51,479 nucleotides of DNA from Methanobacteriota archaeon. Lineage in GTDB: Archaea; Thermoplasmatota; DTKX01; VGTL01. Below, piece by piece: positions 3,002-40,705 of this stretch. Location of the stretch: assembly GCA_016874675.1 (NCBI GenBank), contig VGTL01000013.1, forward strand, positions 1 to 51,479. The letters are read 5' to 3'. How positions within the stretch are numbered: the stretch's first letter is position 1; each line of letters begins with the position of its first letter. The notes under the pieces were generated by a model, which was given only the letters and a program-made list of their open reading frames with translations, ran no database searches and was not told the origin of the DNA. The position numbers were made by a program, and so were the translations under genes.

Positions 3002-3197
3002 CCGCGGCCCCGTCCCTCAATCTATCGAGGTCCTCCGGCTTGAAGCCGTTCTCGGCCAGTGTCCGGACCATGTCCAGCCTGATAAGCTCCCGGATGGCCT
3101 CGCGCACGACCTCGCTGCGGCTCTTGTACAGCCCTTTCCTGACCTTGGAATCAAGGTAGTCCAACAGGCCGGGCGTGACCTCGATGCTGATATTCAT
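2964..3197 (-). CDS. ribbon-helix-helix antitoxin
   Basis: A 77-residue protein beginning MNISIEVTPGLLDYLDSKV, the short beta strand and first helix of a ribbon-helix-helix (CopG/VapB-like) DNA-binding domain; the second helix is SRSEVVREAIREL. The C-terminal part after about residue 48 is charged and would wrap the toxin. ATG 3197 is chosen because GGTGAT, complementary to the 16S tail, ends three bases before it and because the longer open frame upstream looks non-coding. It precedes and overlaps the PIN gene. A palindrome in the promoter (3223-3236) is a likely autoregulatory site. Confidence 0.82.
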   Translation of the reverse strand: MNISIEVTPGLLDYLDSKVRKGLYKSRSEVVREAIRELIRLDMVRTLAENGFKPEDLDRLRDGAADELFAKKYKRFA

Positions 3198-5955: not shown

Positions 5956-6810
5956 ATGCACCACAAGATAGCGGTAATCGGCGCGGGCCAGATGGGGAAC
6001 GGCATCGCCCAGGTCGCCGCGGCGGCCGGGTTCGAGGTCGTGATGCGGGACATAGAGCAGAGGTTCGTCGACAACGGCCTCAAGACCATCGACAAGAACC
6101 TGGGGCGCATGGTGGAGAAGGGCAAGCTCCCGGCCGAGGAGAAGCAGAAGATACTGGGCCGCATCAAGGGCACGCTGGAGCTCAAGGACTGCTACGACGC
6201 CATGGTGGTCGTGGAGGCCATAATAGAGAGGGCCGACCTCAAAAAGCAGCTCTTCAAGGAGCTGGACCAGAACTGCCCGCCGGAGACCATCCTCGCCTCC
6301 AACACCTCCTCGATATCGATCACCGAGCTTGCGGCCAGCACGAAGCGGCCGGACCGGTTCATCGGGATGCACTTCATGAACCCGGTGCCGGTGATGAAGC
6401 TCGTCGAGATAATAAAAGGCGTCGCCACCTCCGAGGAGACCACCCGCGCGATCGTGGAGCTATCCAGGAAGATGGGCAAGGAGCCGGTCGAGGCCAACGA
6501 CTACCCGGGCTTCATAGTGAACCGCATCCTCATGCCCATGATAAACGAGGCCTGCTTCGCCCTCATGGAGGGCGTGGGCACCAGGGAGGGCATCGACACC
6601 TGCATGAAGCTCGGCACCAACGCCCCGATGGGCCCGCTGGAGCTCGCCGACCTCATCGGCCTGGACACCTGCCTGGCCATCATGGACGTCCTCTACTGCG
6701 GCCTGGGCGACCCGAAGTACCGCGCCTGCCCGCTTTTGAAGAAGATGGTGGCCGCCGGCAGGCTCGGAAGGAAGACGGGAATGGGCTTCTACGACTATAC
6801 GAAGAAATGA
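5956..6810 (+). CDS. hbd: 3-hydroxyacyl-CoA (3-hydroxybutyryl-CoA) dehydrogenase
   Basis: Cytoplasmic NAD(P)-dependent enzyme that interconverts (S)-3-hydroxyacyl-CoA and 3-oxoacyl-CoA in beta-oxidation or butyrate-type pathways. The Rossmann motif GAGQMG is at 9-14. The catalytic dyad is visible as His140 and Glu152 in [13 protein letters not shown], and the C-terminal domain starts with the conserved [12 protein letters not shown]. At 284 residues it has the length of single-domain Hbd/PaaH proteins, without a fused crotonase. ATG 5956 gives the conserved start of the Rossmann strand. A TATA-like CATAAAATAC lies about 40 bases upstream. A crotonase lies 3.9 kb downstream on the same strand and could supply the preceding step. 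Confidence 0.93.
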
Positions 6811-6818
6811 GAGCGCTG

Positions 6819-7097
6819 GGAAAGGCAGGAAGGGAGCAAGGGAGCAAGGCAGCAAGGGAGCAAGGCAGCAAGGGAGCAAGGCAGCAAGGGAGCAAGGCAG
6901 CAAGGGAAGGCAGCAAGGGAGCAAGGGAGCAAGGGAGCAAGGCAGCAAGGGAGCAAGGCAGCAAGGGAAGGCGGGAAGGCAGAAAGGGAGAAGGGCGGCA
7001 GGGGGACGGAACGACAAGTCGTCCCCTTGCTGCCTTGCTGCCTTGCTGCCTTGCTGCCTTGCTGCCTTGATCCCTTGCTGCCTTGATCCCTTGCTGC
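6819..7097. repeat. hairpin repeat: AGCAAGG tandem arms around a GGGGAC...GTCGTCCCC core
   Basis: The left arm (6819-7000) is built from repeated GGGAGCAA and GGCAGCAA octamers, with some GGAAGGCA units near the end. The core at 7002-7026 reads GGGGACGGAACGACAAGTCG then TCCCC. The right arm (7027-7097) is repeated TTGCTGCC, the complement of the left units. The arms differ in length (about 180 and 70 bases). The transcript could fold into a long imperfect hairpin. It fills the gap between two co-directional genes, so it may attenuate or terminate. Open frames through it encode only low-complexity Gly-Ser-Lys-Ala-Arg-Gln repeats and are not genes. Confidence 0.85.
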
Positions 7098-7107
7098 CCG
7101 CTGACTC

Positions 7108-7142: not shown

Positions 7143-10100
7143 ATGTCGCTCGCCCCGGGAAGGATGGTCGGGAGGGAGGCGGAGCTCCGAAAGCTCTCCG
7201 AGCGGCTGGAGGCCGCGAGGGTGGGCAACGGTTCGACCGTCATTATATGCGGCGAGACCGGGATAGGCAAGACGCGCCTTCTGGACGAGCTCGCCTCCTC
7301 GGCCGTGGGCGTCCGGATGCTGCGCGGCTCGTGCCTGCTCGAGTCCGCCTCGCCGTTCCTGCCTTTCAGGGAGGCGCTGGCCTCCGGGGGCCTGGGCGCC
7401 CTTCTCGCCGGCGGCCAGAGCCCCCGGCTCGAGGCCGTCTACCTCATCAGCCTCCAGGGGCTGCTCCTGGGCAAGGCGGAGCGCAGGAGCACCGACTTCG
7501 ACGCCGACGTGTTCTCCTCGATGCTCCACGCCGTGGAGTCCTTCGTGCAGGATTCGCTTTCCCGCTTCTCCGGCCGGGAGACCCAAGACGGCCTGAACAG
7601 CATGGGCTACGGCCGGTACACCATCCTCCTCCAGAAGTGCCGGCTCTTCTCGATGGTCGCGATGATCTCCGGCCAGCGCAACGAGTTCCTGATAGAGGAC
7701 CTGGGGGCGGCCTCGGGTACCATCCTGCGCGACTTCGGCTCCAAAATTGAATACTGGAACGGCATAGTCGACCGGGTGAAGGGCATAGAGGGCCCGCTGG
7801 AGGCGCTGCTCTCTTCGGGCAAGTACGACGGCATAGACTACGCCCGGGACGACCCGAGGCTGCGCCAGGCCAACATAATGGAGAACGTCGCCCGCGGGCT
7901 TGAGCGCGAAAGCCGCGCCTTCCCGGTCTGCCTCGTGCTCGAGGACCTGCAGTGGTCCGATCCCTCTTCACTGGCCCTGCTCCACTTCCTGTCGCGCAAC
8001 ACGCGACGGGACCCGGTGCTCCTGATCGGCACCTACCGGCCGGAGGACCTCCTGCCGTCGCCGGACGGCTCGGAGCACCCCCTCCTGGCCTTCCTGCGCA
8101 CGGCCGCCTCCGAAAACCTCCTCGAGCGCACCGAGCTCGGGAGGCTGGGCCCGGAGCACACCGACGAGATGGTCCGGGACGTGCTCGGTCCCTCGGAGCT
8201 GCCGCCGGAGTTCACCGCGCAGGTCCACCGGGAGACCGACGGCAACCCGATGTTCGTTTTGGAGCTTCTGCGCCTCTACGAGCAGGAGGGCGCCGTATTC
8301 CGGGAGGGCGGCGCCTGGCGCGCCCGGGAGGCGTGCACCACCTGCGCCCCGGCGCGGGTCAACGAGGTGGTTCTGAGGAGGCTGGGCCGGCTCTCCCAGG
8401 AGCAGCGCGACGTCTTGGACTGCGCCAGCGTCATCGGGCTGGAGTTTTCGGCCGACCTCCTGGGCCGGGCGCTGGACCTCAACCGGCTCAGGCTCCTGCG
8501 CACCCTCAAGGAGCTCGAGGACCCGCACCGCCTGGTCCGGGCCCGCCAGGACCGCTACCGCTTCGACCAGACCCGGGTGCGCGAGCTCCTCTACTCAGGG
8601 CTGGGCCCGGACCTCCGCCGGGAGTACCACCGCCTCGTGGCGGCGGCTATGGAGGGGGCGGCGCCGGAGGGCCCGGCCGCAGAGGAGCTGGCCTACCACT
8701 ACATGAAGGGCGGGGAGCCGGCCAAGGCCGTCCCGCTCCTGGCCGCCGCCGGCGACCGCGCCCGGAGGGAGTACGCCAACCCGGAGGCCCTGAGATACTA
8801 CACGGACGCCCTGGATCTCATGGGCGCGGACCCGCAGTACGCCGGCGACATCGCCGGGCTCCAGGACCGCTCGGGCGAGGTGCTCTCGGCCACGGGGGAC
8901 TTCGACCGGGCCGTGGAGCGCTACCGGAAGGCCCTGGCGGTGCTGACCTCGGGCCGGCTCGGCTGGGGCCCGCCGGCGCGCCTGCGCGCGGCCGCGGTGA
9001 TGCGCCGGATGTCCGAATCCCTTGAGAAGAAGGGCGACCTCGAGAGCGCCGAGCACGGGCTGGAGAGCGCCCTCCAGATGCTCGGGGAGGACGACCCCGC
9101 CGAGAGGGGCCGGGCGCTCCTGGGGAAGGGCGTGCTGCGCTGGAAGCAGGGCGACTACGCAGGCGCCGATGCGTTCATAAGGGAGTCGCTGGGGGCGCTC
9201 GGGACGGCCGGCGCCGACCGCAAGGACCTCTCCAAGGCGCACAACCTGGCGGGCCTCGTGGCCCAGAGCCGGGGCGACTACGACGGCGCCCTCCTGGAGT
9301 TCCAAACAAGCCTGGACATCGACCTCTCGACGGGGGACCTTCGCAGCGCCATCTCCACCCGGAACAACATCGGCGTCGCCCTGTGGAACAAGGACGACTA
9401 CGACCGGGCCTTGCGCATCTTCGAGGAGAACCTGGCCAGCATCGAGAAGGTGGGGGACCGGCACGCCCTGGGGAACACCCTGAACAACCTGGGCCTCATC
9501 CAGTGGAACCGCGGCCGGTACGCGCAGGCGCGCGAGTGGCACCTGAAGAGCCTGGCGGTCCGGGAGCGCATCGGCGACCGGCCGGGCATCGCCTCCTGCC
9601 TGAACAACCTGGGCCTGGTGGACTGGGGGCTCGGCGAGCACGCCTCGGCGCTCCAAAGCTTCGGGCGGTGCCTGGCGCTGCGAGAGGAGCTCGGCGACCG
9701 CAGCGGGACCGCGGTGGTGCTCAACAACATCGGCAACGTCCTGGCGGACCGCTCGCGCTACGGCGAGGCCCTGGACCACTACCGCCGGAGCCTGGCCATA
9801 TCGGAGGAGCTGGGCGACCGCCAGGGGATAGCCATCGCCCTGAACAACCTGGGCGACGTCTCCTCGAGGCTGGGCCGGATGGACGAGGCGTTCGGCCACC
9901 ACCAGAGGTCCGTCGGGATCCTCGAGAGCATCGGCGACATCCAGGGCGTGGCCGTGGCCTACAACAACATCGGCAACCTGTACATCGAGAAGGGCGAGTA
10001 CGACCGGACGCTCGAGTACTTCGAGAAGAGCCGGGCCATCATCGAGAGGATAGGCGACGAGAGGGGGCTCGCGGTGGCGCTCAACAACCTGGGGGACCTC

Positions 10101-21649: not shown

Positions 21650-22552
21650 GTGAAGGTGCGCATCGGCTGCTGCGGGTGGCAGTACGACGACTGGGTGGGC
21701 CCCTTCTACCCCCCGGAAGCGAGGAACCGCCGGGCGGGCTGGCTCGAGCACTACGGCCGCTTCTTCGACTCGGTCGAGATCGACAGCACCCACTACTCGG
21801 TCCCGGGGCGCAGGACGGTCGACGCCTGGGTCCAGAAGGGGCGGCGCATCGGGAACTTCGAGTTCTCGCTCAAGGTGCACCAGGAGGTCACCCACGGCCG
21901 TCTCGTGGCGCTGGATGCCGCCGGGGCCGCAGCGCTCGCCCGGGACTTCGAGCGGGATGTGCTCGCCCCCCTGGACGACGCCCGGCTGCTGGGCGCGGTG
22001 CTGCTCCAGCTCTCCCCCCACTTCCGCCGGGTGGACGACGCTCGGGGCTCCTCGCAGGCGGTCCTCCGGGATTTCCTTGGCGGCCTGGACACCGGGCGCT
22101 ACCGGTACGTCGTGGAGTTCCGCCACGAAAGCTGGCTGGACGCCGGGCGCAGGGAGATCCATCCCGGGGCGCTCGACATACTTCGGGAGCGCAAGGTGGC
22201 CGTGTGCGTCCTGGATTCCCCGGGGTTCCCGGTGACCTCTGCCCAGACCGCCGACACCGCTTACATCCGCTTCCACGGGCAGAACCGGGATATCTGGTTC
22301 TCGCGCGAAAAGCCCGGGGGCGACACCCGGCTCAACCGCTACGACTACCTGTACTCCGAGGAGGAGCTCGGCCCCTGGGTCGACCGGGTGGAGGACATCG
22401 AGCGCCGGTGCCGGGAGGTCCGGATAGCCTTCAACAACCACGGCCACGCCAAGGCCGTGAGGAACGCCCTTGTGTTCCGCCGCATGCTGGGCGGGGACGC
22501 CGGCGGGAAGGAAACCCGGATGCCGGAGAGGGTGACGCTGGACAGTTTTTGA
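21650..22552 (+). CDS. DUF72 (YecE-like) TIM-barrel protein
   Basis: A 300-residue protein of the DUF72 family, widespread and of unconfirmed biochemical role. Family marks are IGCCGWQYDDWVGPFYP at the start, FDSVEIDSTHYSVP, FEFSLKVHQEVTH, VVEFRHESWL, and near the end AYIRFHGQN and IAFNNHGHAKAVRNAL. All main conserved blocks are present and the length is normal. The start is GTG 21650 on a leaderless transcript. It converges with the Tus-like operon; a hairpin repeat separates them. No operon partner is visible. Confidence 0.88.
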   Translation: MKVRIGCCGWQYDDWVGPFYPPEARNRRAGWLEHYGRFFDSVEIDSTHYSVPGRRTVDAWVQKGRRIGNFEFSLKVHQEVTHGRLVALDAAGAAALARDFERDVLAPLDDARLLGAVLLQLSPHFRRVDDARGSSQAVLRDFLGGLDTGRYRYVVEFRHESWLDAGRREIHPGALDILRERKVAVCVLDSPGFPVTSAQTADTAYIRFHGQNRDIWFSREKPGGDTRLNRYDYLYSEEELGPWVDRVEDIERRCREVRIAFNNHGHAKAVRNALVFRRMLGGDAGGKETRMPERVTLDSF

Positions 22553-22715
22553 AGGGCAGGAAGGCAGGAAGGCAGAAAGGCAGCAAGGGAGGGCAGGAAG
22601 GCAGAAAGGCAGCAAGGGAGGAAGGGGACGGCCGTCGTTCCTTCCTGCCTTCCTGCCCTGCTGCCTTTTTGCCTTCCCTTTCTGCCTTCCTGCCTTGTTG
22701 CCCTGCTGCCTTTCT
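22553..22715. repeat. hairpin repeat: AAGGCAGG tandem arms around GGGGACGGCCGTCGTTCC
   Basis: Left arm units GGAAGGCA and GGCAGCAA run from 22553 to 22620; the core lies at 22624-22641; the right arm is GCCTTCCT and TGCTGCCT units to 22715. It sits between convergent genes, so a terminator role is possible here. The core contains the exact palindrome GACGGCCGTC. Confidence 0.85.
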
Positions 22716-22722
22716 CCCCACA

Positions 22723-24055: not shown

Positions 24056-24235
24056 ACGGGGCAGCGAGGAGCGGTGGGGCAGCAGGCAGCGGGCCCGCAG
24101 GCGAGCGAAGCTCGCCCAGGCAAGGACGACCGGAGGCCGTCCGGGAGCGGGGAGCGGTGACGAGACGGAGCCCGTCGTCCACCGCTCCCCGCTGCCCGCT
24201 CCCCGCTGCCCAGTCTTCCCGATGCCCGTTGCCCG
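24056..24235. repeat. hairpin repeat: GGGAGCGGGGAGCGG arms and nested small hairpins
   Basis: This member is composite. GGCGAGCGAAGCTCGCC (24101-24117) and GGACGACCGGAGGCCGTCC (24124-24142) are nested hairpins; the main core GGTGACGAGACGGAGCCCGT then CGTCCACC (24156-24183) is flanked by GGAGCGG and CCGCTCC units out to about 24235. It lies between divergent genes, so it cannot be a simple terminator there. Confidence 0.8.
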
Positions 24236-24287
24236 TTGCGCCAATTTATCACAATTCTTATCTAGTAATTGAGCACATCCCCTGCCG

Positions 24288-32297: not shown

Positions 32298-32395
32298 AGG
32301 GCAGCAAGGCAGCAAGGCAACAAGGCAGCAAGGGGGGAAGTGGACGGCCGTCGTCCCTTTCTCCCTTGCTGCCTTGCTGCGCCGCCGCTGCTTTC
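32298..32395. repeat. hairpin repeat: GGCAGCAA arms around GTGGACGGCCGTCGTCCC
   Basis: Left arm GGCAGCAA x3-4 (32298-32335), core 32340-32357 with the palindrome GACGGCCGTC, right arm CTTGCTGC x2. It separates two convergent genes. Confidence 0.82.
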
Positions 32396-32405
32396 TTCCT
32401 CCCTA

Positions 32406-35545: not shown

Positions 35546-35820
35546 ATAAAGGCGCAAGGCGCAAGGCGCAAGGCGCGAGGCTTGAGGCGCAAGGGTCAAG
35601 GCATATGGAACAAGGGGGAGGGAGCAAGGCAGCAAGGCAGCAAGGCAGCAAGGCAGCAAGGCAGCAAGGCAGCAAGGCAGCAAGGCAACAAGGGGACGAC
35701 GGGTCGTTCCATACCCCCTGCTGCCTTGCTGCCTTGCTGCCTTCCCTTGCTCCCTTTCTGCATTCCTGCCTTCCTGCCTTTTCCCCTCGCGCCCTGCGCC
35801 TTGCGCCTTGCGCCTTTTTC
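35546..35820. repeat. hairpin repeat with two nested unit types (AAGGCGC outside, GGCAGCAA inside)
   Basis: Outer units AAGGCGC x4-5 (35549-35580) pair with GCGCCTT units at 35790-35817; inner GGCAGCAA repeated about eight times (35628-35690) pairs with TTGCTGCC x3 (35718-35745). The core at 35692-35710 is GGGGACGACGGGTCGTTCC. It lies between divergent genes, just outside the V4R promoter. The nesting of two unit types in symmetric order is clear. Confidence 0.85.
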
Positions 35821-40549: not shown

Positions 40550-40705
40550 GGCACGGGATAAGGGAAGGGCAGCGGGCAGCGGGCTGGGTGCTGGGTGCTG
40601 GGTGCTGCGTGCTGTGTGCCGGGTGAAGGGGACTTGCCCGGTTCCCTTCCCGCACCCCGCACCCCGCACCCTGCACCCTGCCCGCTGCCCGCTCCCTTGC
40701 CCCTC
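40550..40705. repeat. hairpin repeat: GGGTGCT/GGGCAGC arms around GGGGACTTGCCCGGTTCCC
   Basis: Left units GGGCAGC and GGGTGCT (40565-40620), core 40628-40646, right units GCACCCC and GCACCCTG followed by CCCGCTGC to 40705. The order of unit types is mirrored on both sides. It lies between divergent genes. Confidence 0.82.

Follow-up and report, generated by a model that had tools for sequence, protein, structure and literature searches.

Tandem G-rich units of 7 nt (GGGAATC or GGGGA(C/T)T) have been described as bacterial repeats that number hundreds per genome (Rehm et al. 2015, PMC4692102). In Xanthomonas, the GGGAATC heptamers are intergenic, lie near stop codons and form 70-75 convergent inverted pairs per genome, and Nostoc carries related heptamer repeats with few pairs (Rehm et al. 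2015, PMC4692102). Palindromes with other designs are also known. REP, REPIN and BIME sequences, with their RAYT transposases, are dispersed extragenic palindromes that form long hairpins and are copied as whole units (PMC3116915). CGTC-tagged REPs are palindromes of 20-40 bp in which CGTC is an unpaired end tag and which have no associated transposase gene (PMC3733652), and the intrastrand-triplex or Box C repeats are dispersed sequences whose purine-rich and pyrimidine-rich domains fold back on one another (PMC4666352).

The hairpins considered here come from an archaeal metagenome-assembled genome (MAG) of 3.36 Mb in 189 contigs, which encodes TFIIB, a protein whose matches among 14 control genomes were confined to archaea. 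The window, which is the whole 51,479-nt stretch of DNA analyzed and is contig C13 of this genome, carries all six elements that an earlier note had located there, each built of tandem short units with a G-rich left arm and a C-rich right arm.

6822..7098, unstranded: largest element, class A (GGCAGCAA/GGGAGCAA units), with left arm 6822-7001, core 7002-7026 and right arm 7027-7098; in a co-directional gap, about 12 bp past the stop codon of 5956-6810
7002..7026, plus strand: core GGGGACGGAACGACAAGTCGTCCCC of the largest element
22553..22719, unstranded: class A element, core about 22624-22641, occupying the entire convergent gap, with flanking stop codons at 22552 and 22723
24059..24239, unstranded: class D element (GGGCAGC/GGGGAGC units) in a divergent gap, containing embedded short hairpins at about 24096-24142
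32298..32403, unstranded: small class A element, core GGACGGCCGTCGTCC about 32342-32356, between convergent stop codons 32297 and 32406
35546..35820, unstranded: nested element in a divergent gap, class B outside (GGCGCAA arms about 35546-35610 and 35780-35820) and class A inside (core 35692-35716)
40560..40702, unstranded: class C/D element (GGGCAGC then GGGTGCT units) in a divergent gap, with a weak core at about 40628

The largest element folds as DNA with z = -12.0 relative to dinucleotide shuffles, and the element at 22553 folds as RNA with z = -10.2. No Rfam family matched in the window. Short paired mini-hairpins lie inside some arms, at 24096-24142 of the window, at about 13095-13150 of L067 and at 7771-7906 of L103, examples being GGCGAGCGAAGCTCGCC adjoining GGACGACCGGAGGCCGTCC and also CCGTAGAAGACCGCTGCGGCGGTCTTCTACGG; these are perhaps a second repeat family inserting into the G-first elements.

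The window was read together with 40 further stretches, 825 kb of the host genome in all, and genome-wide pattern counts were added. Within this sample 125 elements were parsed, about one per 6.6 kb, in agreement with the density of about one per 8 kb first proposed and, by extrapolation, corresponding to roughly 500 elements per genome. They are about 80-290 bp in size, with a median seed-extent of 160 nt, and account for some 3% of the sampled genome. When each element was assigned to a class by the dominant unit of its left arm, at least four classes with units of 7-8 nt emerged in this one genome (GGCAGCAA, GGCGCAA, GGGTGCC and GGGCAGC). The sample holds 50 elements of class A (GGCAGCAA), which may be over-represented because the second half of the sample was picked from contigs with core matches, along with 35 of class B (GGCGCAA), 17 of class D (GGGCAGC/GGGGAGC), 14 of class C (GGGTGCC/GGGGGCC), and a few each of the minor classes F (AAGGGGC) and E (units of about 25 nt with GGGGGACGTGTTGGT). 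Genome-wide scans found the pattern well beyond the window, with 1432 three-unit runs of class A, 1068 runs of class B, and 46 matches to the class C hairpin pattern versus 0 in its C-first control, bearing out a dispersed family with hundreds of members. The agreement of class between left and right arms of the 125 parsed elements follows from the way they were detected, and we therefore relied instead on G-arrays found blind to any partner; their class and that of the right-hand C-array agree nearly always, and the proposal that unit class is the same on both sides of a locus and differs between loci holds on this independent footing.

The closest known design is that of the GGGAATC heptamer inverted arrays of Xanthomonas (PMC4692102), so the earlier statement that no named repeat family has this design was too strong. 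Both consist of tandem G-rich units in intergenic spacers near the upstream stop codon, and in both there are inverted pairs with facing G-rich arrays. The layout is thus the same while the sequence is not, since the archaeal units GGCAGCAA, GGCGCAA, GGGTGCC and GGGCAGC depart from the GGGNATC or GGGGAYT of the Rehm repeats. The archaeal family further differs in having four or more unit classes per genome, 8-nt units among them, longer arms, mostly paired arrays, nested B-A-A-B elements and many units that are not G4-capable, and its common GACGACGG/CCGTCGTC tip was not seen in the bacterial loci. REPINs and CGTC-tagged REPs are similar in behavior and fail on structure. Like REPINs, the archaeal elements are dispersed extragenic palindromes that form long hairpins and are copied as complete units; unlike them, they end in variable-length tandem arms of 7-8 nt units, have no GTAG-type tagged REPs, and do not flank the Y1 transposase genes of the archaeon (C71, C5). 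Like CGTC-tagged REPs they contain CGTC and lack an associated transposase gene, but in the archaeon this motif is part of the paired tip, and the whole element measures ~80-290 bp. Box C repeats share the dispersal and the purine-rich and pyrimidine-rich fold-back domains, whereas the archaeal elements have no third arm and their units are not homopurine. The elements are therefore a new version of an already described heptamer-array design, marked by a strong polarity rule.

Near-exact cores, with up to 3 mismatches to GGGGACGGAACGACCCGTCGTCCCC, occur at 39 places in the genome. The earlier note had ascribed a shared core of the form GGGGAC..GTCGTYCC to all members, and this stands for part of the family. 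GTCGTC or GACGAC lies no more than 30 nt from the apex in 60% of class A, 59% of class D and 29% of class C elements and in all three of class E. Class B, second in size among the classes, shows it in just 6% of its elements, which is the background level of random windows (also 6%). The member reported at 40550 is likewise present, although its core is merely a weak variant. Where cores could be anchored on GGAACG, the right side (CGTCGTCCCC) is better conserved than the left side expected to pair with it, left positions -4 and -3 reaching 54% and 42% in a set of 26 sequences, a few of them from outside class A. That the right side is kept better hints that the core may be under sequence recognition and not pairing alone.

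The order of the arms is far from random. In the 825 kb sample, clusters with 12 or more seeds were G-left in 77 cases and C-left in 0. Of the 145 G-arrays found blind to their partner, 117 had a C-array on the right no further than 250 nt away, and 0 had one on the left. A unit-agnostic period-7 pattern, (GGGN4)3...(CCCN4)3, gave 326 matches genome-wide versus 2 for its C-first version, which served as the control, and G-left order is also kept by the 22 elements in divergent gaps. This G-first polarity is far beyond chance. A C-first hairpin would pair equally well, so that neither terminator nor cruciform models predict the polarity. One possible cause is that self-folding and self-copying are limited to G-rich nascent ends; another is that selection keeps transcripts G-rich-first from either side.

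A scan for GGGAATC found hairpins in Xanthomonadales, Solimonas, Gemmatimonadota and one Planctomycetota MAG. The GGGAATC arrays of these bacteria have a right partner in 52 cases and a left partner in 0, a polarity that is partly ascertained because it was the G-first GGGAATC pattern that served to select the ten bacterial genomes compared; that reservation does not extend to further unit classes in the same genomes or to the near-zero controls. The unit-agnostic pattern gave 12-85 matches per genome versus 0-1 in the control. The bacterial apices carry a recurrent motif of their own (AAAAGC..GCTTTT types) and not the archaeal one. Several unit classes occur in each of the Gemmatimonadota MAGs, such as GGGAATC, GGGAACC and GGGGATG, and in having multiple heptamer classes within one genome Gemmatimonadaceae ES-bin-78 (L147/L156) and a Gemmatimonas MAG (L133) resemble the archaeon; G-first hairpins of GGGAATC, GGGAACC, GGGGATG/GGGAGTG and GGGACTC were observed per genome in these two. 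The occurrence of the same order in Xanthomonadales, Gemmatimonadota and Planctomycetota suggests a cross-domain rule, and it raises a simple question on how tandem-arm hairpins arise or are selected. Tentatively, G-first heptad and octad hairpins might form a general, unnamed class of prokaryotic intergenic elements in bacteria and archaea, with unrelated units and one obligatory polarity, either produced by a common process (fold-back of a G-rich nascent strand followed by copying of the finished hairpin) or retained for the stalling of RNA polymerase by G-rich-first transcripts from both sides.

Several pairs of archaeal elements are near-identical over their whole length. Inverted copies at 8553 and 12640 of L077 share 217 identities over 257 nt, the elements at 3037 and 11027 of L088 are also whole-element near-matches, and the window element at 35551 matches L101 5001 in inverted orientation, the apex of 35546..35820 being near-identical to that of L101 5001-5219. 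Three class B copies (L074 4310, L080 17340 and L084 10004) are near-identical, and a non-arm tail of ~50 nt past the right arm (..CTGGAAAAAGAGTTGAARTTCCTACTAGGAAT..) is common to L074 4310-4560, L080 17340-17500 and L084 10004-10200, so that the copied unit can exceed the hairpin. An apex 14-mer absent from the arms was shared with another element at 55 of 125 apices, compared to 0-4 of 125 random windows, and by class these shared tips were found in 64% of A, 71% of D and 1 of 14 C elements. Arms of one locus, on the other hand, match little beyond their class. Likeness between same-class arms is only slightly greater within a locus than between loci (for class A, 0.595 versus 0.558), the true partner of an arm has a median rank of 18 among 41, arm lengths correlate between left and right in class A alone (rho 0.35), and the composition of variant units correlates weakly between sides except in class C. 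From locus to locus, class B marker units (CTTG, GTC and GAC variants) follow one another towards the tip in a consistent order, and at a given locus the left arm often carries other markers than the right. A left-versus-right comparison per locus thus upholds the matching of class, while variants match weakly outside class C, and the earlier suggestion that arms are re-copied from each other is not well supported; near-identical full-length elements located far apart, and in both orientations, point to finished hairpins having been copied.

Whole-element copies, shared apices and weak left-right matching together fit dispersal of founder hairpins followed by unit slippage better than they fit arms re-copied from each other. 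With moderate confidence, we therefore regard the hairpins as a dispersed family of palindromic, non-coding repeats whose behavior is that of a non-autonomous element, mobile or copied, in the manner of REPINs or MITEs. Its dispersal, whole-element copies, unit classes, polarity, stop-codon adjacency and lineage restriction can be read directly from the DNA. The founders, each built from a single class of tandem unit and often bearing the common tip, would have been copied as complete hairpins into gaps, chiefly the spacer right after stop codons, by a transposition-like process via a putative enzyme. Their arms would then grow and shrink by slippage of 7-8 nt units, largely independently per side, so that length and the mix of units would come to differ from locus to locus. 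Retention beside stop codons may reflect tolerance at such sites. Transcription from either side would put the G-rich RNA arm first, and its pairing with the C-rich partner could turn the hairpin into a bidirectional read-through barrier.

No mobilizing gene could be tied to the family among the Y1 (HUH) transposases, reverse transcriptase and gene-bearing copies examined. Compared to a MITE, no target-site duplication was visible at the boundaries of copy pairs, and the 825 kb sample yielded no gene-bearing (autonomous) copy. A Y1 transposase as driver is not supported, neither of the two Y1 loci checked (C71, C5) being flanked by the family's hairpins, and the single reverse transcriptase found resembles a group II intron protein. 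A broken Y1 gene at L079 7500-8560 (contig C5) adjoins a dense cluster of other small palindromes, such as CCACCGGTTGAAACC.. and CCGCCTTCCTGAAACAGGC... Separately, L086 1036-1371 holds repeated and inverted copies of TCGAATCCCAGCGCGGGCGCCCACCA, which resembles the 3' end of a tRNA, as would be seen where an element has integrated.

Birth in place, the idea of the earlier note, would have G-rich units expand by slippage, the nascent strand fold back and copy itself, and the arms be re-matched by template switching. It would explain the polarity directly, since fold-back would be limited to a G-rich nascent 3' end, and it accords with the several same-polarity unit classes in Gemmatimonadota and with one copy pair that differs by 16 nt in both arms simultaneously. 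The tips shared by most A and D elements, the whole-element copies and the weak agreement of left with right arms in A, B and D nevertheless make it unlikely for the family as a whole. Class C is the best case for it, since its apices are mostly private and the two arms of a locus resemble each other more closely, and this class may have been born in place.

Elements lie in all types of gap, as the earlier note had held, co-directional gaps holding 67 of them, convergent gaps 27 and divergent gaps 22. The median distance is 11 bp to a stop codon (quartiles 2 and 23) and 68 bp to a start codon, start positions being approximate because genes were called with an in-house, simple codon-usage caller; in co-directional gaps the stop codon was nearer than the start in 57 of 66 cases (p = 1e-9). 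The gap space left after subtracting the element is at least about that of element-free gaps in co-directional (91 versus 52 bp) and divergent (162 versus 165 bp) gaps, which fits addition without loss, and convergent gaps are the exception (16 versus 51 bp).

Selection for functional bidirectional transcription terminators or 3'-end stabilizers could account for elements that sit flush with stop codons, form very stable RNA hairpins and occupy convergent gaps most (32% versus 20-23%). A T5 tract was present in 5.8% of distal flanks versus 4.1% of controls, however, a small excess short of the T-tract of intrinsic terminators; core orientation shows no dependence on the direction of transcription (7 same, 10 opposite), and neither do arm lengths (93 versus 92 nt). 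The elements are therefore not ordinary intrinsic terminators, and with 22 of 116 in divergent gaps the view that they are not only terminators is upheld. Most gaps are empty, and 388 other genomes of the phylum manage without the elements, so that a selected terminator or stabilizer as the explanation of the family seems to us quite improbable, although such a role is not exclusive of dispersal. A G-quadruplex nature of the elements, which Rehm et al. (2015) proposed for the GGGAATC repeats, is highly improbable. The motif (G3+N1-7)x4 is found in 14 of 14 class C, 13 of 17 class D and 4 of 4 class F elements but is mostly missing from the largest classes (10 of 50 in A, 11 of 35 in B) and from class E (0 of 3), so that it cannot be the common feature of the family. 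Assembly artefact, or purine-loading of transcripts mimicking the polarity, can be practically dismissed: this is a single MAG and several cores lie <300 bp from contig ends, yet hundreds of copies with distinct flanks lie within contigs between intact genes, divergent gaps are G-left too, the opposite of what purine-loading predicts, and relatives are without the elements.

The core and class A arms were absent from 59 relatives, and no such cluster was found in 160 kb of the sole same-family relative. The unit-agnostic pattern is absent or near-absent from 388 other genomes of the phylum (0-5 matches per genome), which makes a recent rise of the family probable. Several unit classes in one archaeon, filling ~3% of its sampled genome and all but missing from those 388 other genomes, are what give the family its significance. 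A scan for class A arms in genome contigs beyond the host genome found nothing. Viral contigs with runs of GGCGCAA or GGCAGCAA were rejected as they had no paired arm, and class C and D hairpin patterns were found in none of the viral contigs. Among IMG/VR contigs L169-L171, L174 and L175, several carry unpaired GGCGCAAGG arrays just past apparent terminators.
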